A DNA stretch of 64,000 bases, taken from NCBI GenBank assembly GCA_009829735.1, contig CM020618.1, positions 11,499,119 to 11,563,118 on the forward strand. The letters are read 5' to 3'. The notes beneath the pieces were generated by a model. The model was not told the DNA's origin, did no database searches, and saw nothing but the letters and a program-made list of their open reading frames with translations. A program made the translations under genes and the position numbers. Below, one piece after another: positions 15,939-34,415 of the stretch (position 1 is the stretch's first letter; each line of letters opens with the position of its first letter). The DNA comes from Pyropia yezoensis (Eukaryota > Rhodophyta > Bangiophyceae > Bangiales > Bangiaceae).

Positions 15939-16600
15939 CGTGTAGAGGGGGAGACCAGCGGGGGCAGATGCAGGCCTACAGGCGGAAACGGGCTGAAGGC
16001 CGACGCCAGATGGCGCGCGGCGGCAAACCAACACATCGACAGGCGCGGTCTGGCCGACTGTCGGGAGCATAAACGGGCGGGCGGGGCAGACCGGTGGGAA
16101 GAGGCAGGCCGAGAGCCAGTGGTAGGCCGACAGCGAGCAGCCGGTCGGCGTGGTGGCCGGCAAGCCGGGGCTGGCCGACGGATGGGCAGGGGCTGACGGG
16201 CGCAGGTCGCAACCGCGCATATGCAAGACGATGCGCAGGTGCAGTCCGGCCGGCTGGAGATGATCGACCCACGGGGGTACGCCGATCAGCTGGGGAAGAC
16301 CAGCAGGCGCGGGTAAGCCAACGGACGAGGGTTGAACAACCGGCTGGGGCACGCCGACAAGTGAGAGGCAGCCGACGCGCGAAGGCAGCGTGCAAGCAGA
16401 GACAGGTCGACGGGAAGCGGCCGGCCACCGGCCGGGGCACACCAACAGGCGGGGTCAGGCGGAGGGATCGAGGCACGCCGACGCGCGGTGTCTTGCCAAT
16501 GCTGAGAGGCGGACCAGGCCGACGAGCGGGGTCTGCCAGACGGTGAGCGGCAGGCCGACGGTGGGGGGCAGGGAGAGCACTGAGCTGAATTTTCTGAAGC
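15939..16600. repeat. Degenerate low-complexity repeats
   Basis: Variants of gccgac, gggcagg and gccggc recur at irregular spacing of about 30-50 bp. The sequence keeps frames open on both strands but encodes only repetitive Pro/Gly/Arg-rich peptides. Confidence 0.45.
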
Positions 16601-16819
16601 GGCGGCGCTCGTTGGGGGGAGAGGGGGTCACGCCTGCGGAGAACAGGTCTTGTTCATTGGGGTAGGTTCAGGTACGATGGACCAATGGTAGCCCCCTTGC
16701 GGACGCTGACAGCGAAGCTCTAAGAGCGTCGGCCCGTTGGTGAACGTAGCGACGATTGCCCGCTCGAGGCGGCTCGTCGCTGTGCGGGTGAGTGTGCAGC
16801 GGCCACCGCGAGTTGCCCT

Positions 16820-17540
16820 GCGCAGCAGGGCCAAAACCAGGTACCTTACGGACTCCGATTTCCTCTGCTTTGACGTGCAAACACGTGCTCCGGGCGTGCG
16901 CGGGCGCGTTTCCAGGTCTCCGTGGTTTGCTGAACTGAGCACGACTGTCGTGCCGACACTGCAGCTTGCGACAGCAATTGTGCGGACACGCGCACGAAGT
17001 GAACAGGTGTTGCGCACCACCCAGCAGCTCTCCGGCAGCTCCCTGAACTTGAAAACCAGGTGCCGTCGCGCACGGGGCCGATTCATTGGTCCAGACGTCG
17101 ATTTTCATGCAGCATCAATGCTCGCCTTTTGCATGGACCAAACACGGCAATGTTGGATCTGCACACGCCCTGCAGTCGCGCACATCCGCTGCAGATGCAG
17201 TGATGCTAAACCCGTGCGGACTTGGTTGAAAGACATGCAGCAGTCCGCACCACCCTTCGAACAGAAGCTACTGCTACAGGGGGGGGAAACGGCGGCCCAC
17301 TTTGTTCTTTCGTCCACACGTACATCTGAGTCTGCTCTATCCTTCACAACAACAACCAAGCTGGGCCGTTATTTCCCCTTCGAGCTATGCTGCTATAACG
17401 CACTGCATGCGGCCCAGGTGCACGAAAATCGGTCTCCAGGGGCCCATCAGGGCACGTTGCAGAGTCTCTGCGGCTCTGCAACACGCCGTTACAGAGGGAA
17501 ATCGCGATCTGTAAGGTACCTGGTTTTAGCCCTGCTGCGC
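16820..17540. mobile_element. Small element with ~45-bp terminal inverted repeats
   Basis: The left end (gcgcagcagggccaaaacc, then aggtaccttac and cgatttcc) is matched by the reverse complement of the right end up to 17540, with about five mismatches in 45-47 bp. The interior has no protein I recognise and lower GC than the flanks. A 7-bp direct repeat, CGAGTTG, occurs 4-9 bp outside each end (16809-16815 and 17550-17556), a possible but imperfect target duplication. It lies at the 3' end of the Fanzor gene, whose last codons run into the right terminal repeat. Confidence 0.5.
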
Positions 17541-17549
17541 TGCCAGGAT

Positions 17550-18408
17550 CGAGTTGTAAGTCGCCTGACGGGGGCTGGTGTGGCCACCACCCTCCACGTT
17601 CACGTCGTCGTCATCACCATCTGCAGTCCCCGTTGCCTCCGCCACAGCGGCGGCCGGCGGCGGAAGAGGCTGCGGCACCAACAGGTGTTCATCAGCCGCC
17701 GTGTCCGACTCCTCCCCGTCGTCCTCTTCCGCCTCGGTGCCCTCCACCGCAGGCGCCGCCGACGCCGCCGGCAGACGGCCCGCCCACCACGAGTCCGCTG
17801 TGTCCCGCGACAAGTCCCAGTCCCGTCGGCCGGTCCCGTTGCCTCGTGGCGGACGGCGCACACGACAGCCATGGAAGAACGGGGCTGTCGACGCGCCAGA
17901 CAGAGACGCCAGACCCGCGCCAGCAATGTTGCGCGCCGCGTTCTTGTCCCGGCTGACATAAGTCACGGGGCAAGGCACACTCACGCACATGCGGGCGCTC
18001 CAGGCCGCCTTCTCGTCCCGTCCCGTCGCCCGCTTTTGCAGGGCCTCGAGGCGCTGGGCCGCCCACTCTTCATCCAGCCTTTCAGCAATCGCCCGCTTCT
18101 GTGCGTCGCGGGCGACGCCCCCTCGCCGTGGTCGGGTGCCGCGGTGGCTCTTTGCGGCACACCGTCGTGGCTGCACCGGCTTGGCCCCCGCACCTCCGCC
18201 CTGGACCGGCTGCTGCTTCCGGCTCTCAGCCAGGGCGGTGCCATTCCACATCTGCCGCCGGTCGGGGGGGGAATGCGCCGTCGGGTACACGTTGACCAGC
18301 TGGTGCTTGCAGCCCGCGCACGCAGCCGACATGTTGTGCTCGCTGATGCGCAGCGCGTTCATGTGCGGGCTGGCACGCTTGAACAGCTGCACTACGCCGC
18401 CACTAGTG
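17550..18408 (-). pseudogene. Fanzor nuclease, C-terminal fragment (RuvC-II, zinc finger, RuvC-III)
   Basis: Fanzors are eukaryotic relatives of TnpB, RNA-guided nucleases carried by transposons. This piece has the RuvC-II glutamate with the first zinc pair (ISEHNMSAACAGC; Glu codon 18339-18341). A Lys/Arg/Pro-rich insertion follows, then a second Cys pair and the RuvC-III signature (CPVTYVSRDKNAARNI; Asp codon 17946-17948). The order and spacing E-CxxC-(insert)-CC-RDxNAAxNI are those of TnpB/Fanzor. An acidic tail of ~130 residues follows. The 5' side abuts a solo LTR; removing the LTR and one TAGTG copy joins this frame exactly to the fragment at 18777-19195. The 3' side ends at a small inverted-repeat element. 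Confidence 0.85.
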
Positions 18409-18771
18409 TGTAGCACAATAGGTATCCGCTGCACGTCCACTCTCCGGGAACACTCACCAAGGGGGATCGGCACCAACGTCACCGGGAGGCCAAGGTTGCT
18501 GTCCTTGGAGCGCAAGCCACGGGACCAAGATGGGAGCCCAAATGGGAGGGGTTTGTTGTTCTACCATGGCCGGCGGTGGATTCGCCGCCGGCCCCCTCGT
18601 TATAAACCCTCGGAGACACTACTAACTACCCTCCACCCCGAGATGCAAGTCCCTCTGGTCATACGTAACTTATAGATACCGTGACCAGTACGGACTCCCA
18701 AATTGAAAGTTAAGGGTTAGAAGTAGCCCCCCTAATATTAGGGTCACAATACGGTCAACCATATTGCTACA
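18409..18771 (-). repeat. Solo LTR of the Gypsy family found at 36.3-47.0 kb
   Basis: This 363-bp sequence is the reverse complement of the Gypsy LTRs, with the same TGTAGCA...TGCTACA ends. It is flanked by a perfect 5-bp duplication, TAGTG, at 18404-18408 and 18772-18776. No internal element sequence remains, so it is a solo LTR formed by LTR-LTR recombination. It sits inside the Fanzor coding sequence just after the GAGVT codons. Confidence 0.95.
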
Positions 18772-18776
18772 TAGTG

Positions 18777-19195
18777 ACGCCCGCCCCCCACATCACCACC
18801 ACCACCTTGCCGTCGACAGTAAGGCGTCCCAGCCCACCCGTCAGTTCCTCAGAAAACTGCCTTGCAAACCGCTTGCGCTGTGCGTGCCGGTGCACGTGAG
18901 CCTGGCGCAGTCGCCGTGTGACGTCTGTGCCATACACCGCCAGGTACTCGAGGGAGTCCCGCAACTCCGCTCCCGCTCGTGCGGCCGTCCACCACGCCGC
19001 GTCCGTCCCCACCTTCAGGGACGTCGCCGTCAAGCGCGCGGCGAGGACCTCGTCGTCCTCGGCGCTGCGCTCGGCGGCGCAGTCTTGCTGGGCCCGCGTC
19101 ATCATTGTCGCCCCCGACCGCTCCCGAAAGGACGACCCCGACACGGCGTACGTCTCCCCGCGAGAGGGGCACGCGGGCGGCCGTTGGCGTCGTCC
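18777..19195 (-). pseudogene. Fanzor nuclease, middle fragment
   Basis: About 140 residues: GETYAVSGSSFRERSGA, helical sequence around SLEYLAVYGTDVTRRLRQAH, then DGKVVVVMWGAGVT. In TnpB/Fanzor this is the part between RuvC-I and RuvC-II, where a YxxSGxxFRxxSG-like motif follows the first aspartate and a hydrophobic strand ending in a W/Y-G motif precedes the glutamate. The frame joins the C-terminal fragment once the solo LTR is set aside. Its upstream side touches the 5' end of a Copia element, estimated at 19196. Confidence 0.75.
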
Positions 19196-19427
19196 TGTCG
19201 CACAGACAGGCGCGGGAGAGTCTGGGACAAATATAGGGAGGGGTTTTATGGAGGCCGGAGGTGGAGAGAGGACCAGGGGATAGACAAGAGACACCTTTCA
19301 CCCTCTGCACATCCGTCTGCACCGCGGAGGAGGCCCTCGTCCGGCGGTGTGTGCCGAGGGAGTGGGGGCGCCTGACGGCGCTACCAGCCCCCACTGGGGG
19401 AGCCCACCCACCCTGTGTGTCACAACA
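19196..19427 (+). repeat. Probable 5' LTR of the Copia element
   Basis: The 232-bp stretch begins TGTCGCACAG, ends GTGTGTCACAACA and is followed at once by a Copia-type primer-binding site. No second LTR remains to confirm the start. Confidence 0.5.
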
Positions 19428-19442
19428 GGTTATGGGCCCAGG
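19428..19442 (+). promoter_or_regulatory. Copia primer-binding site
   Basis: GGTTATGGGCCCAGG directly follows the LTR end. TTATGGGCCCAG-like sites, thought to match an internal part of initiator tRNA-Met, are common in Copia elements. Confidence 0.6.
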
Positions 19443-19655
19443 GCTACCATACGCACTATCGTTTAGCACCCTGACGTGGAACGAGGCTGTGCTCGAGTTG
19501 CAGCTTGCGCTTGACACCGGTTGCACGACGGGCAGCGGCACTGAGGTCGCTATCGAGACGTCCGCTGAGGACGACGTCGACCGCGCGCTGAGCCGCGCAA
19601 GGTGTCCCCGGAGGCAGGGGGACACGGGGGAGGAGCACGAGGGCTCCACCCAGCT

Positions 19656-20615
19656 ATGAGCTTCACTTTGTCAGGCGGCAGCGCCGCATGTGGCGGCAGC
19701 ATCAAGCTCGCCAAGCTCAACCTCGCCAACTACGTGCACTGGCGAATTGAGATGGAGCCGGTGCTCCAGATGCATGGCGCGTGGGACGTGCTGCACCACC
19801 CACGCCCTGTCGTGCCCCCGGCTACTTTGGGGATGGCGCAGTCCGATGGAGCGGCTGTGCTGGCGGATGCAGGCGAGCAGACAGGGGACCGCAGTGCGAC
19901 GGCAGTGTCGGGAGACGCCGCATCCTCAGCTGTTCACGCCAAGAAGGGGAAGGCACGAGCTGCAATGGCTGGTAAGAACCAGCCGTCGCCGGCCACCCGC
20001 CAGGCGGCCATCGACGCTCAACGGAAGGCTGAGGCGGTGCACGAGCTGGCTGTGACGGCGGCGCGGGAGTGGGACAGGCAGAATGTCCAGGCGCGTGGAC
20101 TGATCATCCTCGCGCTGGAGCCGGTCCACCAAGTGGTAGTCGGGCGGCATTCCACTGCCAAGGGCGTGTGGGACGCCCTGGAGCGAGACTACCGCTCTCG
20201 AGCAATGGCGCGTGCACAAGTCCTGCGAACGCAACTTGATGCCCTGAAAAAGAGAAACACGGAGACGGTGTTGGAGTACGTGGCACGCGCTCGCACCATC
20301 CAATGAGAGCTGAAGGAGCTTGGCGAGGAGGCGTCGGACCGCACAGTGCTGATGACCGTGCTCACCGGCCTCCCGTCAGACTACCACGTCACTGTGGGCA
20401 TCCTGGAGGCAAGCGATGCGTCCTTTAAGGACGAAATGCCCAAGCTCATCACGGCAGAACAGCGCATCGCCATGCTCAAGGCGCGGCAGAGCGACCCCGC
20501 AAAGAGCACTGGAGTGGCGTTGACAGCCACCAGCAACATCACGTGCTTCGGGTGCGGACGGCGCGGCCACATCCAGCGCCACTGCCGGTCGAGCGGCAGT
20601 GGTGGAGCCAGTTGA
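19656..20615 (+). pseudogene. Copia gag with zinc knuckle
   Basis: It starts MSFTLSGGSAACGG, followed by KLNLANYVHWRIEMEPVL, the usual Copia gag opening (KLxxxNYxxWRxxMxxxL). The zinc knuckle CFGCGRRGHIQRHC (CX2CX4HX4C) is at about 20551-20592. A TGA at 20304-20306 and a TGA at 20613-20615 break the frame. The protease lies in the -1 frame relative to gag; no good slippery site is visible, so this is probably an indel. Confidence 0.85.
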
Positions 20616-22405
20616 GACAAGGCCGAGGGGCCGCGCGAGGTCGCGGCGCCCCTGGACGGAGCGGACGCCAAGCTGGGCACAGTCGTGGCGCTGTGCGCAA
20701 CAGTGCCCCCCGCTTCCCCGCTCGGGACATGGAGCGACGGTCGGTGCGAGCCAACCCTGGCGGCACGAACGATGACGACCTCAGTGACGGCGCACATGCA
20801 CTGTCGGCCGCTGCAGGCGAGCGGACGATCGGCAGCGGACTGCGCGCCGGAGCGGTGACGGCGAGCGCGGAGGTCTGGGTGGTGGACAGCGGAGCATCCC
20901 ACCATATGACGGGCAAGCTATCGATGCTGCGACAGGCGGAGCGCATCAGCCCGCTCCGAATCCACATGGCGAATGGAGACACACGCCTGGCCACCCACTC
21001 GGGCAAAGTGCTCATCCACACCACCACCTCGACGGGGACTCAACCGCTGGTGCTGACGAGTGTGCTGGTCGTCCCGGGCTTGGCGACCAATCCGTTCTCT
21101 GTGCCGCGGGCAGCACGCAACGGTGCCCACGTGGCGTTCACGGCGGAGGGCGTCAGCCTCACGGCTGGCGGCCGGGAGTTGGCGCGCGGCCACTCACGCA
21201 GCGGCGTGTACGTCCTGGATCGGCAGGAGGCCGTCGCCATGACCGCACAGGCGGACGACGACAGCATCAAGTGGCATCGCCGGGTCGGCCACGCAGGGGG
21301 GGCTGCGCTGGCTCGCACTCCCGCCGCTGTGGACGGCATGCGCGCGGACACAGCAAACCTGCCCAAGGTGTCGGGGGGCTCGTGCACGCCGTGTGCGGTC
21401 GCCAAGATGACCCGCCTGCCGTTCACGCCGGCCACGGACACCCCCAAGAGGGTGATGGACCTGATCCACACGGACGTGTGCGGGCACATGCCGGTGGAGT
21501 CAACTGGTGGCAGTCGGTACTTCGTCACAGTCATCGACGGGTACTCGCATTACGCCGCAGTAAATGCCCTCCGGTCTAAGGACGAGGCCGGGGCGGCAGT
21601 ACGTAATGCGCTCCTCCAATGGGAACGCGCGACGGGCCACAAGGTCAAGCGGCTGCGGCGCGACGGCGGCGGGGAGTACACCGGACACGAGCTGAGCGAC
21701 TGGCTGCGGGCTAACGGCGTCGACGTCCAGGTGACCGCCCCCGAGACACCCGAGCAGAACAGTGTAGCAGAGCGGTACAACCGCACGCTTGCGGAGAGGG
21801 CTGTCGCTATGATGGAGGACGCTGGATTGCCTAAGGCCATGTGGGCGGAGGCGGTCGGCACGGCCAACTACACGGCCAACCGCATCCCACGCACGGGGGA
21901 GACGAAGACCCCGTTTGAGCTGTTTCGTGGCGGCAAACCGACCGTGGCCAACCTGCGGGCGTTTGGGTGCCGGACGGTTGTGCTGGCCCTCAAGAAAGGA
22001 CGTCGCAAGCTCGACCCTCGCGGGCAGGCCGGCGTCTTGGTCGGCTACTCGCCGACAAGCAAGGCCTACAGAGTGAGAGTCGGGGCCAAGGTCGTCGAAA
22101 GCCGCAACGTTAGGGTTCACGAGGAGGAGTTCCCCGGTCTGTGGGAGCCCACACAACCTGATATTGAGACGGACATGGACAAGGTGCTGGCCGCGTGCCG
22201 CTTGGTGGCGGGAACCGGTTCGGCGCCGTCGGAGCCCGCCGACAAGACTACCGTGGCCGCGGCGACAGATGACACGACGGACGACGAGGAGGAGGGCATC
22301 GCGATGGGTGCCCGCGCAACGCCTGACCGCATGTCGGAGGCGGATGCACGCAAGGAGCCGGATTGGCCGCTGTTCGAGGAGGCCGCCCGGGCCAAGGTCG
22401 ACTAG
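20543..22405 (+). pseudogene. Copia protease and integrase
   Basis: The protease active site is VWVVDSGASHHMTG. Integrase follows: WHRRVGHAG with CTPCAVAKMTRLPF (zinc-binding H2C2-type), DLIHTDVCGHMP (first Asp), YFVTVIDGYSHY, LRRDGGGEYTG (second Asp), and PEQNSVAERYNRTL (Glu). The frame stays open through these domains and ends at a TAG (22403-22405). A second TAG follows at the Trp position of the ENGTW motif just before reverse transcriptase, so both stops are disabling. Confidence 0.9.
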
Positions 22406-23240
22406 CTCTGGGAGAACGGCACGTAGGTACCGGTGCCCCACCACGAGGTCCCGCTCGACGCCAGGATCATCGACACGATGCTCATCTTCGACCGCTATCG
22501 AGACCAGAACGGGAACATTGAGCGGCACAAGGCGCGCAACGTGGCAAAGGGATTCCCGCACGTGGCTGGCCGTGCCTTCACCGAGAAGTGGGCGCCGGTG
22601 GTGCGTCAGACGACGATGCGGACGCTGCTGGCCCTGGTGGCGGCAAACGACTGGCACATGCAGCAGATGAACTTTAAGACCGCCTTCCTCAACGGCACGC
22701 TGAAAGAGGAGCTGTACGTTCGCCAACCGCCGGGATTTGAGCGTGGTGACCCGTCGCGGCTGTGCCGGCTGGTGAAGGCCATCTACGGCCTGAAGCAGGC
22801 AGCGCGGGAGTGGCATCTGGCCTTCATTACCGCGCTGATCGGAGCTGGGTACCGTCGATCTGAGGCCGACCCATGCCAGCTGGTGCAACGTGACGGTGCG
22901 CGCGCGGTGTATATCCTCATATATGTCTACGACTTGCTATTGGTCGGCCACTCGGCGGCAGCGGTGGCTGCGGCAAAGGACGTGGTCGCGGGACATTTCA
23001 AGGCCCGCGACATGGGGGACCCGGCGTGGTTTCTGGGCATGCACATCGCTCGCGATCGAGCGGCGGGCACACTCACCCTTTCGCAGAATCAGTATGCGAA
23101 GACCATCGTGGAGCGGTACGGGCTGGGGAGCGCGAACCCCACGACGCTGCCGATGCTCGTCGGCGCAAAGATGCGCAAGGAGGGGACGTTGCTTGACGGC
23201 GACGCCAAGAGACGCTACCCTGAAGTTATCGGTGCTTTGA
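22406..23240 (+). pseudogene. Copia reverse transcriptase, truncated and catalytically altered
   Basis: It is in the same frame as the integrase. Motifs: HKARNVAKGFPHVAG, WAPVVRQTTMRTLLAL, MNFKTAFLNG, LYVRQPPGFERGD, RLVKAIYGLKQAAREW. Two catalytic positions differ from the family: the first Asp in DVKTAFLNG is Asn here, and YVDD reads YVYD. RNase H is absent because the element is cut at about 23240. Confidence 0.9.
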
Positions 23241-23745
23241 TTCTTTCCGGGGTCGACCCCCACGAGGCAGTAGCGCAGAGACGCGTCGCCCAGATCCAGG
23301 CCCAGTGCCTCTGCCTGGGCCTCTAGGCTGGACGGCGGCCCGCCCTCCCGCTTTGACCTCAGGCCGCGGCGGACGTGCGCGGACGCTTGCGCAACGGACT
23401 CGGCCGCCGTCGCGTCGCGGCTGTGCACAAACACAAGGCCTGCACCGTTGGTCAGCACTGTGATGTTGAACGCCGTCTTGCAGGAGCCCACCCGGGCTTT
23501 GCGCGCCAGCGTCCGCACCGCCTCGGTCTTGGCATCTTTCGACATGTTCCCTGCCAGGCTGGCGTGCACCCACTGCCACCAGCCCTCCTCAGCCAGCCCG
23601 GCCTGGCCAAGCCTCCGCCGCAGCAGCGGCGCCGGCACGTGCGTGTACCGGCAGGTGTGGGGGTGTCCCCGATGCAGCACAGAGATGGCGGCGTGGCCGC
23701 GCGTCGCCAGCATGGCCTGCACTTCGAGCAGCAACGGCAAGAATC
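23241..23745 (-). pseudogene. Fanzor nuclease fragment with the TDGVS-like motif and RuvC-I
   Basis: About 168 residues. It begins FLPLLLEVQAMLATRG, as in the wedge region of Fanzor proteins, continues HASLAGNMSKDAKTEAVRTL, then VLTNGAGLVFVHSR (equivalent to the conserved TDGVSVSV strand), and ends CLVGVDPGKN, the RuvC-I motif with its catalytic Asp (codon 23252-23254). A DIRS-like element adjoins the upstream side and a Copia element the downstream side. Its frame matches the N-terminal fragment: the intervening 5,529 bp are divisible by three. Confidence 0.8.
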
Positions 23746-24240
23746 GCCCACTTTCCCCTCCCAGTACAAGGCTGTTAACTTGCCCTGTTCCGAGGAGGGG
23801 AGGCCCGAGCGCGCGTGGCAGCTGTAAGCCGCTGCCGGCGGCCTGGACCGTTTCGCTGGGCGTCCGACCACCGCGGGCGCCGGCGGGGCGGCGGCACGAC
23901 TGGCGGTACCCCCCCCCCGGCGGCCGTCCGGCTCTCCCGTCACAGCGAGCCGTTTCGGTAGCGCGGCGGCGGCAGTTACGGCGGCGACGGGGCTGCGGCG
24001 GCGGTGGCGGAAGCGCCAGGCGGTACGGCAGGGCGCACGCGGCCCCGCCGCACGCGCCCCACCCCGGCGGGCACCCTCTCCCCCGGACCCCCCCCCCCCC
24101 CCCCCCTCCCCGCGGACTCGCCCCGCCGCGCGGCAACGTGGCGGGCGGGCGGGCGCCATCGAGCACGGGGGCGCCCATAAGGAGCAATCGGGCCGACCCC
24201 GCCAGCCGACCAGCGGGCGGCAACGTCCTTCTTGCCGCTT
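23746..24240 (+). repeat. Left direct repeat A1 of the DIRS-like element
   Basis: It is 495 bp and roughly 90% or more alike A2 by eye, with matching start (gcccactttcccc) and end (cttgccgctt). It contains a run of about 20 C near 24089-24106, much shorter than in A2. Confidence 0.85.
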
Positions 24241-24347
24241 GCGCGACGAAAAGGACTTCCAGGCTGCCTTTTGCGGCCTTGCCTTGACGCGGCCTGCGCG
24301 CCGAAATCGGTGTGGGCATGGGCGAGGACTGAGACACGGCGTCCCCC

Positions 24348-25362
24348 GTGGGCCCTGTGACCCGGGCCGAGCTGACGGCCTTCCAGGGGCGGATTGATGA
24401 GCGTCTGGGGGAGATCCTGTTTTTGGCCAGGACCGGGCAGCTCGGGAGTGGAACCCCCACGGCGGAGCAGTCGCATTCGGCGGCTGCCACACAAGCTCCG
24501 GAAGGAGGCGCCTCCGGTAACAGGGGCGCCCCGCCCGACCCCAAGCGCAACGAAGAAGATGTTAGCGGCGGTGGGGGGACCAGCGGCGAGGCCCGAAGGG
24601 CGACGGGGCGTCCAGGCGGGGCCGGCCCGGGTGCCGGGCGTCGCACGAACGAGGATAGGGCCGACGGCTACACAGACGGCGAGCAGGCTAGCGAAAGGGA
24701 CTCCCTGCTTAGCGGGCTCGGCGGCGGCGAGGCTGGGCGGTTCATCACGGTGCACACCCGTGCCGCCCGCCGCGGGGCCATCGTGTATCACCCCGACGGA
24801 TTTGACGACCCGGAGCTCCCCGCCGCCGACGAAATCATCTGCGCGGGCCGCCGGCTTTCCTGTGCCGTTCGAGCCTGCCGACGCCCGTTATCTCTCCCGG
24901 TTCAAGGACGGCAGCCCGCAGTTTCACGAGGCTTCGTTCGCCTACCAGGTCGCCGCCTGGACGCAAGAGCTGTCAAACGCAGCGGGCACCCTCTACCACG
25001 AGCGGGACACTTACAGCGCGCAAGGCCTGGCCGACCGGCTCGCCGGCGCGGCCGTCGCCAGCCGCCAGCTGTTCCACCTCGCAACGGCCCAGTACGACTC
25101 CCTTGAGTACAAGCAGCGGGACCCGGTCGGCGCGGAGATGTACTGCAGCACCGAGGCGGTGCCCTGGAGCACCTTGCGGGGCCCCAAGGGGCGCCTCTGG
25201 CTGTCTACCGTGGCCCGCGACGAGGTCAAGATCAACATCAAGACCGCCGCCGAGGAGCGAGCGAATAAGCACCGCGGCCACAAGAACAACCCGGGCGGGA
25301 ACAACAACACCGACGCGACCGCCACCCCAGGGGGCAGGGCCAAGCGCCTCGCCAAGGCCTAG
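24348..25362 (+). pseudogene. Gag-like ORF of the DIRS-like element
   Basis: The product starts in one frame (GRFITVHTRAARRGAIVYHP) and continues after about 24860 in the next frame (FEPADARYLSRFKDGS, HEASFAYQVAAWTQELSNAAG, ERDTYSAQGLADRLAGAAVA). It ends in a basic tail (RANKHRGHKNNPGG). The position before reverse transcriptase and the helical middle followed by a basic tail fit the first ORF of DIRS-like elements. I see no zinc knuckle. The frameshift shows decay. Confidence 0.6.
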
Positions 25363-25583
25363 CTGACGGCCGCAGCAGCGGCCGCGACCGCGGCCGCCGG
25401 GGGCGGCGGGGGCGGTGGGGGAGGAGGCGGCGGTGGAGGCCCCAAGGGCTCACGCCGTACGTTTTGGGGCGGCCCCAAGGGGGGGTGGCTTCGCACCTGG
25501 GCGCCAAGTAGCTCGAAGCCCCGTCGCCCGGGGGGGCACCCCAACCCCAGCCGACGGATACCCCGCCGCCGGGCGACCCGCCG

Positions 25584-27404
25584 GTGAAGCCCTTCGTGGC
25601 AACCCGGTGGGCCATCAAGCAGTGGCGGGCACTGAGGGCATCCCGCTGGGTTACCCGCACGATCCTGCAAGACGTGCAGATACCCTGGACCAAGGAGCCC
25701 CCGCGCTACCGCAGTCGAGGCTACTCTCTCAACCAGAAGGACGAGGAGTGCGTCAAGGAGGAGGTGATGCGGTGGTTGACCGCTGGGTACCTGCGGGAGG
25801 TGACGGAGGCCGAGGCGGCGGAGGCGCACTGTGTGGTGGGCGCCTTCGTCACCCACGACGCGGGCAAGCCGCGTCTGATGGTGGACTACCGCCACCCAAA
25901 CGGCTACATGGAACCGCGGTGCTTCAAGTACGAAACGCTGTGGGATCTGGCGCCGGGCCTGGCTCCGGACGATCACCTCATCTCCTGGGATGTGGCCGAC
26001 GCGTTCCACCACCTGCGTATCCAGCCGATGGACCAGCCCTCCCTGGCGTACACCAACTGCGGCCGGACGTTTGTGCCAGTGTCGATGCCCTTCGGCCTTG
26101 CCGTGGCGCCGTACACCTGGACGAAGGTGTGCGGCCCCGTCGTGGCGCACCTGCGGGAGCTCGGCTTCGTGCTGACGGCGTACGTACACGAATTTGGAGG
26201 GCGGCCTCCGGTCCCCCGTCCGGGGCGCCCCGCGACCAAGAAGGACGCGCAACGGGGGTGGTGGACGGCCGAGCGGCTGCTGACCTCGCTGGGCCTGCGG
26301 GTCCACAAGAGCAAAGGGGAGCGGGAAGGGACCACGGTCCTGCCCCTGCTGGGCAACGTGGTCGACACCAAGCGGGGGGTCTTCCGGCTGCAGCCGTCCC
26401 GGGTACAGAAGATCTAGACGATTGCGGCCGCGTTGCTGCGGCACGCGGCCAAGCACCGCCGCTGGGTGCGACTGGGGACTCTCCGGTCGTTCTGCGGGAC
26501 GGCGATCTCGACTACGCTTTCCATTCCCCAGGCGCGATACCGGACCAAGTTCCTCTTTGCCGCAATGCGCCCGCTGCTGCAGACGTACGGGCCGCGGCGT
26601 CCCGCCGGGCGCGATCTCCGGCTGGGGCATCAAGCGCTCGCGGACCTACGCTGGTGGGCCAAGCTGACGGACCTGGCTCTCCTGGGCCGGGCGCTCTGGC
26701 CCGCCGAGGACGATGCCGGGATGCACACCGACGCCTCCCTCACGGGTTGGGGGGCAACGTGAAACGGGACGGTGCCAGCCCGGGGCTTCTACGCCCCGGA
26801 GCGTCGCCACGCGAATATCAACATGCACGAGCTGGCGACCGTGCGGCTGGGATTGCTGTCCTTCGTCCCGCAGCTGCTGACCGGCGGGACCGTCTTGCGC
26901 CTGATGATGGACTCGCTGGCCAGCGTCCATGTGATCAACAATGGGACCTCCAAGTCGGACGCGATGATGGTGGATCTAAGACGACTGCAGGCGGTCTGCG
27001 ATGCGCACGGCGTGCACCTGCGCGCGTCCCACCTGCCGTCGGCCGCGAACCACGTGGCGGACAAGCTCTACAGGACATGGGACAGCACGGACTGGTCGCT
27101 TTCCGACGCCGCCTTCCAGCGGTTCGGAACGGTCTACAGGCCGCACACCCTGGACCTCTTCGCCACGAGCGAGAACCGCAAGTGCGGCCGCTTCTACTCG
27201 GCCACCGCCAATTCGGGCACCGCCGGCGTCAATGCCTTCAGCCAAAGCTGGCGGGACGAGAACTGCTGGTGCATCCCGCGCTTCCAGATGCTGGGCCTCG
27301 TGGTGGCCAAGGTCATCCGGCGCCGGGCGACCGCCACCCTGATCGCGCCGGTCTGGCGCGCCCGGAGATGGTGGCCCCAGGCGGTCGCGGCATGCGATGC
27401 CTAG
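25584..27404 (+). pseudogene. Reverse transcriptase and RNase H of the DIRS-like element
   Basis: RT motifs: GKPRLMVDYRHPNGYM, HLISWDVADAFHHLRI (catalytic Asp present), VSMPFGLAVAPYTWTK. The YVDD box reads AYVHEFGG, so both catalytic aspartates of that motif are lost. After a TAG (26415-26417) the same frame resumes with AAALLRHAAKHRRW. RNase H follows (MHTDASLTGWGAT, then TGA at 26760-26762 at a Trp position; NMHELATVRLGLLSF; LMMDSLASVHVINNG). The C-terminal HTLDLFATSENRKCGRFYS motif is typical of DIRS elements. It ends at TAG 27402-27404. Confidence 0.85.
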
Positions 27405-27589
27405 AAGGTGCTGCCAGCGGCGGAAGGGGTCTTCACCCACGGGACCAGGGACACGCCGGCTCCCCGCCCGAAGTGGGAGGTCACGGCGTTCCGGTTCCAC
27501 AGCGACGGCGCGATCCCGTCCCCCGTCGCGTCCGCTGGTAGCGGCTTTGCGACCGAGTAACGGGTGCGCGGCTCGGGACCGGTGCCGGC

Positions 27590-28501
27590 GTGACGGAAGG
27601 AGCTGCCCTCCTCGAGGCCGCCCATCGGCCCGCGACGGCGGTCAAGTACGTCAACGGGTGGGAGCGCTTTGCGGAGAACTGCGCGAAGGCGCGGTTCAGC
27701 CCATTGCCGGAGGCCCCGGAGACGCTGGTGCGCTACCTTGGCCACGTCAAGGCATTGGGTACCGTCGCCGCCTGGTCGCTGGGGAGCCGACTCGCGCCCA
27801 TCGCCGCGGTTCACGCCCTGGCGGGCCACCCTAGCCCCACCCAAGACAGCGTGGTGAAGCAGGCGAAGCGGGGCTATGCTCGCACGCACACGGTGGAGGC
27901 GGATGGGCGGCCCGAGCTGCGCGGCCCGCTCCCGGCGGCGGCCGTGGACGCCTTCTTGGGCCTCTGGCCTACGGCGCCCCCCGACCTGCGTTGCGAGATC
28001 GCCGGTCTATCCCTGGCCTTCCTGCTGCTCAAGCGGCCGGGGGCGGCGTCGCACAAGCGCGCCCTGGACGTCTTCCCGACGCGCCGGGGCCTGCAGGTGC
28101 AGGTCCCGGATTATAAGATGGCCGTCCTCAAGGATGGCGACCGCATCGCCTACACCGTCCCCACGGCTGCGGTCGGCTGGAGGTCCGACCGCCCGCTGCG
28201 CATCATCCGCGCGCATTGGAGGGCGCACGTCGCGGCCGGCCGGCCGCGCAACGAGCGCCTCTTTGGCCTGGCCGGCACGGTTCAGGCCTTGCCGGCGGGC
28301 GTCGTCACCCGCTGGATGCGGGACCTCCTCGTGCTTGCGCCGACGCCGGCCCCGCTGGGTACCAAGTGGTCGGGCCTCTTCTTGCGGGCCGGCGCGGCGT
28401 CGGAGGCGCACGCGCTGGGATAGCGCGATGCGCTGATCCGGCAGCAGATGGGACTGTCGGACATCAAGGTGGCGTACCGCCACTACATCGACGCCACCTA
28501 G
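27590..28501 (+). pseudogene. Tyrosine recombinase of the DIRS-like element
   Basis: An N-terminal core-binding part (RPATAVKYVNGWERFAENC, EAPETLVRYLGHV) precedes the catalytic part: LAFLLLKRPGAASHKRALDV around the first catalytic position, KWSGLFLRAGAASEAHALG at the HxxR box, and VAYRHYIDAT with the putative nucleophile Tyr. The His of HxxR is not evident and the first Arg site reads Lys-Arg. A TAG at 28421-28423 interrupts the frame between HxxR and Tyr; the frame ends at TAG 28499-28501. Confidence 0.8.
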
Positions 28502-28590
28502 GCGGCGTCGTCGGCAGCCTGGAGCTGGTTTGGGCGCTGCGCGCCCCGGAAGCGACGCGACTCGCCGCCCCCATCTCCGACTTCATGGAA

Positions 28591-28614
28591 CACATTCCCA
28601 GCTACCCCGGTTAT
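28591..28614 (+). repeat. Repeat B1 of the DIRS-like element
   Basis: The 24 bp ending gctaccccggttat recur at the element's right end (29251-29274) with about four differences. Here they lie directly before A2, as B1 should. Confidence 0.65.
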
Positions 28615-28950
28615 GCCCACTTTCCCCTTCCAGGACAAGGCTGTTAACTGGCCCGGTTCCGAGGAGGAGAGGCCCCAGCGCGCGTGGCGGCTGTAAGCCG
28701 CTGCCGGCTGCCCAGACCGTCTCGCTTGGCGTCCAACCACCGCGGGCGGCGGTGGGGCGGCGGCACGACTGGCAGTACCCTCCCCCCGGCGGCCGTCCGG
28801 CTCTCCCGTCACGGCGAGCCGTTTCGGTAGCGCGGCGGCGGCAGTTACGGCGGCGACGTGGCTGCGGCGGCGGTGGTGGAAGCGCCAGGCGGTACGGCAG
28901 GGCGCGTGCGGCCCCGCCGCACGCGCCCCACCCCGGCGAACACCCTCCCC

Positions 28951-28983
<33 letters not shown>

Positions 28984-29111
28984 ACACGCCCCGCCGCGCG
29001 GCAACGTGGCGGGCGGGCGGGCGCCAGCGAGCACCGGGGCGGCCATAAGGGGCGGTCGGGCCGACCCCGCCAGCCGACCAGCGGGCGGCAACGGCCTTCT
29101 TCTTGCCGCTT
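28615..29111 (+). repeat. Right direct repeat A2 of the DIRS-like element
   Basis: This 497-bp copy matches A1 from gcccactttcccc to cttgccgctt. It contains a run of about 40 C near 28942-28981. The adjoining B2 tail (29112-29274) completes the element. Confidence 0.85.
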
Positions 29112-29274
29112 CCTCGTTCTTCCCCGCGCCGTCTTCTCGGCGCGCTTCCACGCGGGCTGTCACGCCCTGTGGTCTTGGTCTGTATACCTTACTAGTGCAG
29201 TAGTGTAGTCCCTCTCCATGCTCAATTAAAACTGCTAGCGTAAATTGGCACACACACCCCGCTACCCCGGTTAT

Positions 29275-31068
29275 ACTGCCAGTACGCCACCCGCTGTGCC
29301 TCGCCGAGCGTGATGGCGAGCACCTTTCCCTGCCGCAGCCTCTTGTCTGCCAACACCTCCATATTCAGACATTTGTCAAACGCCGCCCGCAAGGCTTGGT
29401 GCACGTGCGCCCGTGCGCGCTGCGGCACAGCGGACGGCCAGTCGCGGTCGTGCACCGTGCACGACAGCGCGAGCAGCGCCGCCGCCACTTTGGCGGCCCC
29501 GTGCGCCTGGACACCGCCCCACTTTGGCGATTCCGCTGCTGTGTTGGTGAGAGGAGCAACCGCCAGTGCGTCCGCAACGAGCACCCCCGCCAGCCGTTTC
29601 ACTGCTCGCGGCACCGCCCGAGCCACCACGATGGACGTCGTTGTCGCCACCGTCGTGAACGCGGCCGTTTCTGCAGGACCGAGGAGTTTCTTGTTGCACG
29701 GCGGCGTCGTGACCGCGCAGAACGCGGCGGCCGCGTCCACAATGGCCCGCCAAATGCCCACCTCTGGCGCCATGCTTACGTCTGGTGCCGACCGCTGGTG
29801 GTCGGGTGTGCACAGACACGACTCTCTCATGTCTGCCAGCCGCCCGCACTGGTAGGCCCCCCTGCACGACATGACGGCCGCCATCCAATTTCAGGCGCAC
29901 GCCTTGTTATCGGAGAGGTCGTCCACGGGAGACGAGGCCATGAATGCGCGCACGTCCCCGGCTGCGGCCGCCCAAAGGCTGCGCTCTGCCCCCTCCAGCG
30001 CCTTCACGATAAGCATCCTGTGATTTGTGCGGGCCTCGGCAACCGTTCCAGCTCGTGCTGCAGCCGCGCGGATGCAGCAGACGCGCCGGCGTCCCGCTTG
30101 ACAAACCGCGCCCAGATCGGGGGGCGGCCGCCGGCCACTTTGCGTCTCGGCCGCCAGCCCCGTTGCACGTGGTGGCGATCAAAAAGCACTCGCAGCGGCA
30201 CCAGCGTGGACGCGTACACCCTTTGCTTTCCGATGGCGTCGGGGTCTGGGGCAGACGCGCTCACTCCCGAGTCCCCGGTGTACGCCGTCGCCGCGCTCAC
30301 CGGCCGCTGGTTCTTTGGGCACGCGCGGGACCCACTGGTGTGGCCCGTCGCGCGAGACGCGCGGCACTGCGGCGGTTCATGGGACGAGGCACGCGGAACG
30401 CCCGCGGCGGCCTTGGCTCTGGCAGCCGTCGTCTCGGCCTTGCGCGCCTTCACGCGCGCAGTGTGGGCCGCCTCTTCTGCTGCCGACGCCTCGCAGTCGT
30501 CACGCTTGTGCCCCAGCACACCGCATGCCGTGCAGTGCGCGGTGTAGTGGTGGCCCGTCTCGCGGCACAAGCTGCACCTGCGCGGCCCTCTCTTGCGTGT
30601 GCCCGCCTGCTGCGACTCGGTGGGCGTTTGCGACGCGGCCGGCAGCGCGCGTTCCGGCGGCACTGCGCGGGCCGAACGACCCGCCGTGGCCTCTGCGGCC
30701 GCGGCCGCCGCCACAGCAGCGCGCTTCATCAGCACGTCCGCGCCTTCGATGCGCACGGACTGTCCGTGCACGCACGTGGCTACGGCCGCTGCCAGCTCGC
30801 GCGCCGCGTCTGCCGCGCGCGTGCCCTGCCGCAGCGCCTCTGCGCGCACGTCAGAGTCTGGTGGGGTGTCCTCGACGGGCGGAAACTCCAGCAGCTCGCG
30901 CAGCGTCTGTCGCATGTGTGGCAGAGGGGCTGCGTCCACCTGCAGCTGTGCCGCGGCGGCGGTGGCGGACGCCACTTCCAGCTGTGCCGCCGCCGCCGCT
31001 GCGGCTGCCGCCGCACGGCGCCGCAGGCCCGCCATCAACCCGCCGGCCTTGGCACCGCGCGACACCAT
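29275..31068 (-). pseudogene. Fanzor nuclease, N-terminal fragment with zinc knuckles
   Basis: From the ATG at 31068: an Ala-rich helical segment, TLRELLEFPPVEDTPPDSDV, then two adjoining CCHC-like knuckles at about residues 165-192 (CSLCRETGH..., CTACGVLGHKRDDC), and GWRPRRKVAGGRPPIWARF. A one-base frameshift near 30020 moves the reading to the frame RTNHRMLIVKALEGAERSLW, a TGA lies at 29891-29893, and the frame continues to KVLAITLGEAQRVAYWQ, which meets FLPLLLEVQ of the next fragment in register. Placing this piece in the Fanzor gene rests on strand, order and frame continuity across the DIRS-like element; the N-terminal sequence itself is not diagnostic. Confidence 0.6.
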
Positions 31069-31299
31069 GCTGTGCGCGGTGACAGGCGCACACGTCTCCG
31101 GCCGCGCTCGGCCGAGCCGGACGCCGTGCTGCGCCTCCGCCCGACTGCCGACGGTACCGCCTTGCCGTGCGCACCGGCAGTCGGGGCAGCGCTTTCATAG
31201 ACTTGAGAGCCTCCGAGGGCCTCGCGCGAGGGGTGGGCACAGGTGACGACGACGCTTGCACAGCACCACGCGCTTTGCGTGTGACGGGAGCGCCGCGCT

Positions 31300-31960
31300 C
31301 ACGCGGCGGACCCGGTGTGGTCCGAACCTAGTTTGATTGGGTGGTATACATCAGATGTGCACTTGTCACCGAAGGCAGAGTCCGCCACACGCCAGTCTGG
31401 GAGTGCGCACAGCCAGCGATCATACTCGGCAGACCCGGTATGGTTCGACTCTGGTTCGGTTGGGTGCTACACATCAGATGTGCACCCGGCTGACCCAGTC
31501 TGCTCCGACCCCGGTTTGGTTGCGTAGTATACATTAGAGATGCACTCACCGACGGAGTCGAAGTGGGTCAGAAGCGGGTTGGAGAGTGCCCACAGCCAAC
31601 TGTGACACTGTGCGTGGCAGTCGGACACGGTCTGGTCCGACTCCGGATTGGTTGGGTGGTATACATCAGATGTGCACTCGCCGGTCAAAGCAAAAGTGGT
31701 CAGCATCATGTCGGGGAGTACCCACAGCTACCTGTGAGACCGTCTGACAAAGTCCGGTCTGACCCCGTTTTGGTTGGGTGGTTTACATCAGATGTGCACA
31801 CGCTGACCGAGTCAAAGTGGGTCAGAAACGGGTTGGGGAGTGCCCACAGCCACCTGTGAGACCGTCTGACCCAGTCTGGTCCGACCTCGGTTTGGTTTGG
31901 TAGTGTATATCAGATGTACACTCGCCCTTTGGTGTGCTGAAATGGTCCACACATGGTCGC
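31300..31960. repeat. ~125-bp tandem repeat, left copy
   Basis: About five degenerate units share cagtctggtccgac, ggtttggttgggtggtatac, atcagatgtgcac, agtcaaagtgggtcagaaac and gagtgcccacagcc. The same family recurs at 35850-36190, so it flanks the ATPase and protease genes on both sides in the same orientation. Confidence 0.9.
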
Positions 31961-32180
31961 TGTGACGTCGGGTGTGCTGCGGCCGCGCGGCATTCGTCGT
32001 TGGCGCGATCGTCCGGTGCGCGCGTGGAAAGCCTACTTAAACGGCCCTGCGCCAGCAGCCGAGCATGTGCGGGTCGCACCTGAACCTCTGGGGACCGGCT
32101 GAGTGGCGGTCGATTCGGAGGACGTGTGCTCTCGTGCGCATGCGCACTCGAGACGTGCGGTGTGTGGCAGCGTCGCGGTC

Positions 32181-34415
32181 ATGGGAAGCGGTGGCGGTTG
32201 TCGGCCCGCTGGGCGTGGTCGCCTAAGATTGGCTGACTTTGAGCGAAGGGACGCCCAGTCTCTGCAGGAACAGGCTCCGCTGGAAGCGCCAGCGGCTGCG
32301 TCGTCTGGCGGTGCGCGTATGTTCGAGGAGACGGCCGCGCCGGCGCGGCGCGGCGCAGCACCGGGCGCGGACCACGGCGATGCGGCAGTGGCGGCGTCCG
32401 CCCCGTCACCGGCCTTGTCTGGCGTGGGTGCCGCCGCCGCGGTGCCGCCTGCGGAGCGTGAGTTGACCGCAGAGCGCCGACGTCGCAAGCGGCGTCGGAC
32501 AGAGGGCACCCCCGTCAAGGTCCCGGTCGGGGCGCCCGTGGAGCACGAGGCGGAGCAGGAGTCCGACGACGCGCCGGTGGTGGTGCAGCAGCCGCCGGCA
32601 ACCAGCTCGACGGCCTCATGGGCAGAGGTGGGCGGCCGTGACGAGGCCGTGCGGGGGCTGAGGGAGGCGGTGGTGCTGCCGCAGGTGTACCCGCAATTGC
32701 TGGCGGGCCTGAGCGTGCCGACACCCAGGGGGTTGCTGCTGCGCGGCCCGCCCAGCACCGGAAAGACGCTGTGTGCGCGTGTGCTGGCGGACACCGAGTA
32801 CCCCACGGCACAGGGGACGCGGCGGCTGACTTTTTTTTTCCGCAGCGGCTCGGAGGTGCTGTCCAAGTGGTTAGGGAAGGGTGAGCGCCAGCTGCGCAAG
32901 ATGTTCGAGCAGGCGCAGCAAGAGGCCCCCTCAATCATCTTTTTTGACGACGTGGACGGCTTGGCGCCAGCGCGCGCGTCGGGCGCGGACCACAACCACG
33001 TGTCCCTGGTGACGGTGCTGTTGGGGCTGATGGACGGGCTGGCCTCGCGCGGGGACGTGGTGGTGGTGCGCGCCACCAACTGCGTGGACGCAGTGGATCC
33101 CGCGCTGCGTCGGCCCGGCCGTTTTGACCGCGAGGTGCGTTTTGTGGCGCCCGACTTGGCGGGGCGGCGGCAGCTGCTGCGGATCTTCACGCGGGGGTGG
33201 AACCCGCCGGCCCGCCTCGAGGTGGTGGACGACGTGGCCGCGCGCTCCGCGGGCAACGTAGTGGCGGACCTCCGAGGCGTGTGCTCCGAGGCTGTGGTGC
33301 TGGCGTGTCCCCGAGTGAACCCCGCACTGCTGAGTGCGGACGGGTCCTCGGCCCCGCGCGCGGTGCGTGCTGCCGACGTCACCGCGGACGACTAGTACGC
33401 GGCATTGTCCAAGGTGGTGCCCTGTGCGCTGCGCACCGTGCGACAGGTGGCACGCCCGCTGCTGACGCGGCCGGTGCCGCTGTTGGCACTAGCCGTGCAC
33501 CAAGCTGTACGTGTGGTGCAGGTGCTGCTGCCCGAGGGGCTTTCTTTCCCCGTGGACGGCGGCGGGGGAGTGGTGGCACAGCTGCGCGGGCAGGCCCTGC
33601 TGGAGCGGCACCGGCGGCTGCTGCTGTGCGGGGCTGCTGGTTGCAGCCAGACGCACGTGGCGCTTGCGTTGCTGGCGCGCATGCCAGACTGTGCTGTGCA
33701 CGTGCTTGACCCCGTGTCGGCGTATGCCTCGGCTGGCGGCGCTTCCCCAACACAGCGTGTGGCCACCATTGTGGACGCGGCGTGTGCGTCCACCCCGTTG
33801 GTGCTGTACCTGCCGCAGGTGGACCAGTGGAGCGGCAACGAGGCGGCCTGTCTGTGGGCCGCGCTGGAGGACGTGCCCCTGGCGCACCGCCTGTTGGTGC
33901 TGGCCACCGAGGATGAGCCCTGGATGGAGCTCTCCACGCAGCTGGCAGGCTCCTTCGCCTAGTTCGTGTGCCTCGAGGGGCCCTTCACGTCGCAGCGCGC
34001 CCACTTTTTTGCGCCGCTGCTGCAGGGGGTGTTTGGCGTGCCTGTGGAGGACGTGGAGGTGGTCCAACTTCGCGAGGACCTGTTGAAGCAGCACGCCGCG
34101 TTGTGCGTTGCGCGCGGTGAGGCGCTGAATGGGCTGCTGGCCCTAACTACGGCCTGGTCGGTGGACCTGCTGGACAGTCTGTACACGGACCTGAGCGACG
34201 AGGTCAACGCCTTGCCCGCGGACGTGATCAACCAGGACGCGTTCGCGCACCTGCGGCGCGCCGCCATGCGGCTGGGCGAGTCGCGGGCCCGCGTCACTAC
34301 CAGTCGCTTGGCACCCCCCGCGGCGGTGTCAAATGAGACCTCTGGTTCTGGCCATTCAGCGCCCGCGGGGCAGTTCACGGCTGCTGCTGCGTCGGACCCC
34401 CCCCCGGGCGACTGA
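32181..34415 (+). pseudogene. ATAD2/Yta7-like AAA ATPase with two in-frame TAG codons
   Basis: The family acts on chromatin (histone handling); members have two AAA domains. The first is well kept: SWAEVGGRDEAVRGLREAV, Walker A GPPSTGKTLCA (32745-32777), FFRSGSEVLSKWLGKGERQL, Walker B IIFFDDVDGLAP, RATN (sensor 1) and RRPGRFDREVRF (arginine fingers). The usual Walker B DE reads DD. After a TAG at 33393-33395 the same frame continues with KVVPCALRT and a degenerate second AAA domain, then a TAG at 33960-33962, then GPFTSQRAHFFAPLLQ and a tail to 34415. No bromodomain is evident. I chose the ATG at 32181. Frame is kept throughout, so two point changes may be the only damage. Confidence 0.8.

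Follow-up and report, generated by a model that had tools for sequence, protein, structure and literature searches.

Probable remains of an oversized Fanzor-lineage element, interrupted by at least four insertions, and its relatives in the Pyropia yezoensis genome

Introduction

Fanzors are RNA-guided nucleases of eukaryotes and relatives of CRISPR-Cas12, and the service they render to transposons is still an open question; for both TnpB and Fanzor, cutting of a matching empty site has been proposed to favour retention or spread of the element. Here we describe an element of this lineage in a 64,000-nucleotide stretch of the Pyropia yezoensis genome (positions 11499119-11563118 of contig C1, genome G000; hereafter the window, whose coordinates are used below). 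The genome comprises 107.5 Mb in 11 contigs, three of them of 43.6, 34.3 and 29.4 Mb, and the G+C content of the window is 54-72% per 2-kb step. The locus is very probably a decayed Fanzor-lineage element, with a RuvC domain of the TnpB/Cas12 type, which was hit by at least four insertions, one of them with a deletion, and whose living members would encode a very large RNA-guided nuclease.

In the literature cited here, Fanzors are given a length of ∼600-800 amino acids and guide RNAs of 75-150 nt (PMC11423790), and their molecular fingerprint, a DPG together with a glutamate six residues before the zinc finger, is reported for < 1% of TnpB homologues (PMC10711439). Chlamydomonas Fanzor1 elements keep their 3′ ends and are truncated at their 5′ ends, which has been attributed to rolling-circle replication from the 3′ end; the elements CRe-1, CRe-2 and CRe-3 are described as Helitron2-like, non-autonomous and containing exons (PMC3627910). 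The same paper reports CMe-1A of Cyanidioschyzon merolae, likewise a red-algal Fanzor1 element in many copies, with a consensus of ∼3 kb and ∼80% identity; its section on this element does not mention a helicase, and we compare CMe-1A by its description only. Other Fanzor literature was also drawn on (PMC10432273, PMC6338049). We found no paper on Fanzor in Pyropia or Porphyra, and the titles and abstract openings of papers on Fanzors in relation to red algae, algae, helicases and their wide occurrence in eukaryotes were silent on the families described here.

Results

The element occupies the minus strand from 31194 to 16683, in five pieces with four inserts between them:

29279-31194, minus strand: Fanzor piece 1, N-terminal zinc knuckles and the following region; reading frame broken inside the piece
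23744-29278, plus strand: DIRS-like retroelement, split direct repeats 23746-24240 and 28615-29111, reverse transcriptase-like and Dam domains
23240-23743, minus strand: Fanzor piece 2, TNGAG strand and RuvC-I (VGVDPGKN, D codon 23254-23252)
19199-23239, plus strand: truncated Copia-type insert (Retrotran_gag_2 3.5e-14, rve 2.3e-11, RVT_2 5.9e-53)
18777-19198, minus strand: Fanzor piece 3, region N-terminal to RuvC-II
18409-18771, no strand: solo long terminal repeat (LTR), TGTAGC...GCTACA, with a 5-bp target duplication CACTA at 18776-18772 and 18408-18404
17535-18403, minus strand: Fanzor piece 4, alternative RuvC-II glutamate with zinc finger (EHNMSAACAGC, E codon 18341-18339), CVSVPC, RuvC-III (SRDKNAARNI, D codon 17948-17946) and tail
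16826-17534, no strand: hAT-like insert, 24-bp terminal inverted repeat CAGGGC... with one mismatch
16817-16683, minus strand: fifth Fanzor piece, the 3′ end of the element
16683-16787, minus strand: structured 3′ end RNA, like that of the relatives and ending with the element; putative guide scaffold

The pieces are homologous to one family, relatives lack the inserts, two inserts are flanked by target duplications, and the 3′ RNA is conserved. Loci of the same genome, numbered L021 upwards, provided the comparison. The zinc-knuckle frame of piece 1 (P0001, 31194-30004) matches pieces of L029 (9e-7) and L039 (1e-5), and the part at 29701-29279 matches residues 62-210 of L038 (2e-6). Piece 2 aligned with residues 156-333 of L029 (E 3.5e-16) and, over 23569-23240, with residues 3-110 of L023 (E 1.8e-21); piece 3 (19198-18794) was 61% identical to residues 415-549 of L023 (E 2.9e-45), and piece 4 matched residues 200-378 of L038 (E 2.7e-20). 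In tblastn searches with family queries, the window was matched at 23497-23243 (E 2.8e-5), at 19195-18773 by three queries (2.4e-8 to 4e-9) and at 18458-17850 (E 4e-9), and the proteins P0002, P0003 and P0005 returned the window pieces in the correct order. A tblastx comparison of the window with the loci was dominated by low-complexity matches and was not used. A six-frame translation of the window contains the tail motif E-x6-CxxC...C-x(2,4)-C-x(4,8)-RD a single time, and shuffling the residues of the 644 frames of at least 60 amino acids 100 times never produced it.

An earlier note on this DNA had placed a Fanzor gene here in four ordered fragments and had named zinc knuckles, TNGAG, GVDPGK, ISEH with CxxC and RDKNAARNI as landmarks; all were found on the minus strand in that order, and the three RuvC acidic residues that it described as kept are indeed present (codons listed above). 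Order and strand of the fragments hold, but they number five: 19198-18777 has to be counted by itself, and 16817-16683 forms the 3′ end of the element. The DIRS-like element, truncated Copia and solo LTR that the note saw between the fragments are all there, but it overlooked the hAT-like insert (17534-16826), and the boundary that it drew at 17550 has to be moved, the real end lying near 16683. Its reading of ISEH beside CxxC as RuvC-II is correct, because in Fanzors the catalytic glutamate precedes the zinc finger by six residues.

The relatives allowed each insertion site to be examined, as the note had suggested for the junctions. Residues 62-210 and 213-320 of L038, contiguous there, correspond to window 29701-29279 and 23743-23417 and so fix the site of the DIRS-like insertion closely. 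The repeats of this insert are 91.6% identical over 498 bp; Pfam gave RVT_1 at E 1.7e-4 (below the cut-off) and Dam at 6.3e-7, and did not find a tyrosine recombinase. At the Copia site, L023 holds both sides in one frame (residues 3-110 and 415-549), and compared with its gap of 110-415, ∼300 Fanzor codons between RuvC-I and piece 3 are absent from the window, so that a deletion accompanied or followed the Copia insertion. A reverse transcriptase is present in this insert; neither RNase H (Pfam) nor an LTR repeat pair was seen in it, and the part at 19199-19568 has no assignment. Neighbouring sequences are adjacent in L021-L025 at the solo LTR site, and copies of the LTR itself occur in L024 (97%), L026 (96%) and L025 (87%). 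L021-L025 also run uninterrupted through the hAT-like site to the 3′ end of the element. The insert at that site has an 8-bp flanking duplication (CAGCGCAG/CTGCGCAG, 7 of 8 positions identical), which with 24-bp inverted repeats starting CAGGG we take to fit hAT.

A 165-residue query from the RuvC-II/III piece had 32 matches in the genome at E ≤ 1e-3, itself included, and L021-L040 are the stretches around 20 of these. A blastn comparison sorts them into family 1 (L021-L026), family 2 (L027-L031 and L038-L040), family 3 (L032-L036) and, apart from these, family 4 (L037); the window copy is nearest to family 1, with 65-73% DNA identity. The note had proposed to look for intact copies in the same genome; L035 has an uninterrupted frame of 1,315 codons (P0002). 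L035, L023 and L038 all hold the corresponding regions in single frames. When a protein database was searched with residues 600-1220 of P0002 (8,000 candidates scored), four proteins of 731-1,408 amino acids were returned; the longest members have 1,315, 1,331 and 1,408 amino acids, and two others, of 733 and 731, align to parts of these. Residues 330-587 of P0007 gave one match, P0008.

Family 2 also showed local duplication. L030 and L031 represent a segmental duplication, with 99.9% identity across 3.5 kb that takes in the flank. A repeat of ∼93-94% identity and up to 5.3 kb lies upstream of the Fanzor copies L028, L029 and L031 with differing end points (Fanzor-oriented coordinates: L027 2990-3983, L028 463-5769, L031 1-5307, L029 3-3300), and L027 carries ∼470-bp inverted copies of the end of that repeat.

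Both parts of the Fanzor fingerprint are present. DPG stands at RuvC-I of P0002, P0003, P0004, P0005 and P0007, and the corresponding sequences are VGVDPGKN in the window and VGGDPGR in L037. A glutamate lies six residues before the first CxxC in all five reference proteins and in the window, and this glutamate and both cysteines are invariant in eight of eight aligned C-termini; the TnpB control InsQ has neither DPG nor the alternative glutamate. With relaxed limits, the whole pattern is found in four of the five reference proteins, P0003 stopping without RuvC-III. PF07282 (TNB, the OrfB zinc ribbon) was detected in six of eight C-termini at E up to 1; five of them, listed singly, had E values between 1.7e-5 and 6.2e-3, and none reached the 26.3-bit cut-off. 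In a profile comparison with 12 TnpBs, the RuvC-III stretch alone aligned (P 1.4e-4, probability 53), while a longer alignment scored 35.8, against at most 15.1 for 20 column shuffles (16 distinct outputs). A PDB search with the C-terminal profile gave four matches, two of which, the TnpB-like L79 and Cas12m, were collinear.

Just after the Fanzor frame lies a conserved structured RNA of ∼90-125 nt with a sharp 3′ end, common to the four families; L027 has lost the last part of it. The flanks displayed beyond the element 3′ ends are unrelated between copies, except in the duplicated L030/L031. In the RNAalifold structure of 17 sequences, 96.1% of 306 cells are paired, an advantage over slid versions that is partly by construction because the structure was derived from the same alignment. 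Double changes were seen in 13 cells (5.0 in shuffles), the covariation score was 0.265 (0.207 in shuffles), and three pairs showed a double change (1.8 in shuffles; reached by 23 of 500). Further pair types showed no excess (12 versus 12.6 in shuffles). One position further out in stem I, families 1 and 2 have a G-C pair where families 3 and 4 have C-G (L035 left out). Model R1, built without family 4, recognised every one of the six family 4 ends fetched, with E values from 4e-4 to 3e-3. A stem I pattern was found at 83 places in the genome, the window included, and at none in the reversed control; the loop marks 73 of these 83 as family 4 type.

Family 4 is young, with elements > 10 kb. With 2 kb from the L037 3′ part as query, the best 40 of 197 candidates were scored, and 35 of these (self included) share ≥ 90% identity over 1,970 bases or more. 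Upstream of the L037 Fanzor part the shared sequence continues for 2.0 kb and then 1.6 kb, whole in only some copies; the next stretch of 2.9 kb (L101) is whole in 36 of 41 rows, self included, and here our upstream walk stops, short of the 5′ end of the element. L101 carries AAA_12 (2.3e-27) and AAA_11 (3e-9) on the Fanzor strand, which we take to be a UPF1/DNA2-like helicase of superfamily 1 (SF1); in the L037 copy the helicase frame is broken. A Fanzor part lies downstream on the same strand within 30 kb of 28 of 40 helicase places, and within 7 kb of 24. Of four family 4 ends that were fetched, L097 and L099 retain the 3′ end but have lost 5′ sequence, and by eye neither shows a target duplication. 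Upstream of the Fanzor frame, L037 has five copies of TGTACAT ∼70 bp apart (267-546, Fanzor-oriented), most of them inside the palindrome GCGTTATGTACATAACGC.

Helitron_like_N has 22 matches in the genome, the open frames around some of them reaching 2,040 codons, and the Helitrons here are apparently young; the nearest match is 123 kb from the 40 helicase places. The Y1 transposase of IS200/IS605 had no match in this genome, and five of 14 control genomes were positive.

Discussion

We regard the copy in the window as the fossil remnant of a giant Fanzor element. Like the Fanzor1 proteins SpuFz1, GtFz1 and PpFz1 and those of Bao and Jurka, the family has DPG, the glutamate six residues before the zinc finger and the RD motif, and like Fanzor1 it forms mobile multicopy elements with a structured 3′ RNA before a variable flank. 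It differs in protein size (1,315-1,408 amino acids for the three longest, against the length range cited above), in its extra N-terminal zinc knuckles, in the ∼400 residues from RuvC-I to RuvC-II, in a long zinc-ribbon loop and in the helicase partner of one family. TnpB (InsQ of IS609 and phage relatives) shares the RuvC-III sequence NRDxNAAxNI, profile-aligned, and differs in its InsQ member by lacking the fingerprint, while the Y1 transposase has no match here.

Several results weigh against a Fanzor assignment. The four window fragments had no significant Pfam match. Full-length proteins found no useful entry in Pfam, NCBIfam or PDB; PF07282 matched neither the window piece, L021, nor full-length P0002 and P0004, and found nothing in the whole genome at E 1e-3. 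The PDB matches to L79 and Cas12m were not significant (E 1.4 and 3.6), and the other two were unc-13. The published strict pattern (E x6 CxxC x12-18 CxxC x4-8 D after DPG), scored with the DPG-E distance left free, occurred in none of five family proteins, and not in the InsQ control either. The Bao-Jurka motif D-X(125,275)-[TS]-[TS]-X-X-C4-X(5,50)-RD was also absent: the spacing from D to [TS][TS] is ∼400 residues in P0002, P0004 and P0007, and the window has M-S in place of [TS]-[TS]. Proteins of 1,315, 1,331 and 1,408 residues exceed ∼600-800, and the tail motif is intact on the Fanzor strand of only nine of the 20 loci. Since the fingerprint is present while length and spacing limits are exceeded and full-length searches are empty, we file the family, judged on its sequences, as an oversized, divergent Fanzor-lineage variant rather than a typical Fanzor1. 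The earlier note's Fanzor identity stands, as one multicopy family with the fingerprint and a weak TNB match in several members; its phrase 'known OMEGA-type nucleases' is right only in part, the family being an oversized, divergent branch beyond published length and spacing limits, with putative RNA-guided cleavage.

Could the pieces instead be exons of a split gene, the DNA between them being intronic? They do lie in order on one strand. Yet two of the spacers carry retroelement domains on the opposite strand, the two others have flanking duplications, L035, L023 and L038 hold the corresponding regions in single frames, and ∼300 codons are missing, which makes introns a very improbable explanation. 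Terminal hairpins are common in transposons, and the 3′ hairpins might be no guide scaffold and only an end recognised by a transposase, with the protein a RuvC-like relic in another role. The alignment leaves room for this, since it has just 18 pairs, stem I hardly varies over most of its length and the variety of pair types does not exceed that of the shuffles. We consider this reading unlikely without dismissing it: the RNA directly follows the Fanzor frame, is common to four families, ends at unrelated flanks and, at ∼90-125 nt, is within the 75-150 nt given in PMC11423790. Such an RNA before unrelated flanks is what would be expected of a guide scaffold.

A Helitron-type rolling-circle transposon, with the helicase as its replication helicase, is an alternative of similarly low probability. 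The 5′-truncated, 3′-kept copies L097 and L099 recall Chlamydomonas CRe-1 to CRe-3, which likewise have many young copies (PMC3627910), and the genome does have Helitrons; against this, the helicase is of the AAA_11/AAA_12 type, lies upstream, and has no Helitron_like_N match closer than 123 kb to any of the 40 places. The sequence followed stops short of the 5′ end, and a Rep beyond the grasp of this model may lie further up. Truncation at 5′ might also point to a non-LTR retrotransposon, an unlikely origin given that no reverse transcriptase occurs in the 16 upstream frames scanned, which cover part of the upstream sequence short of the 5′ end.

On the Fanzor-lineage reading, the structured RNA would act as guide scaffold and the adjacent host DNA as guide, and the protein would cut the matching empty site and thereby help the element to persist or spread. 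The element would probably spread by a route in which the 3′ end is fixed and loss of 5′ sequence is tolerated, as has been reported of Chlamydomonas Fanzor1 elements, and in one family this would involve, or be accompanied by, the SF1 helicase. That oversized Fanzor, its own 3′ guide RNA and the UPF1/DNA2-like SF1 helicase form one transposition or retention module, and with it a new class of eukaryotic transposon, is a tentative idea that we hold to be doubtful; it is raised because of the 73 RNA-end copies, the lack of a Helitron Rep near the examined helicase copies and the lack of a Y1 transposase in the genome. At 12 of 40 helicase places no Fanzor part was among the matches listed, which speaks against such a link and may partly reflect that the best 40 Fanzor candidates were scored.

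Four families with a common 3′ RNA, and one young helicase-linked family, are new here, and the latter, beyond the fossil in the window, is the interesting part. In this genome, guide-like RNA can be aligned across four families, young copies are numerous and their 3′ flanks readable, one giant member has no interruption and one family is linked to a helicase, which makes it testable whether the flank of each copy serves as its guide and whether nuclease and helicase cooperate. To judge by the protein size, the fold appears to accommodate additions far beyond those described in the literature cited here.

Sequence adjoining the window element

In an Rfam search of 15000-34000 the sole match was mir-44, inside the solo LTR and under the gathering score, and was dismissed as chance. 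Directly upstream of the Fanzor frame, 31301-31926 consists of tandem units of ∼60-130 bp with TGCACATCTGATGTATACCACCC (minus strand), possibly the 5′ region of the element. Adjoining the element, a plus-strand frame at 32103-33395 with an AAA ATPase-like Walker A motif (GPPSTGKT, by eye) is probably a host gene.

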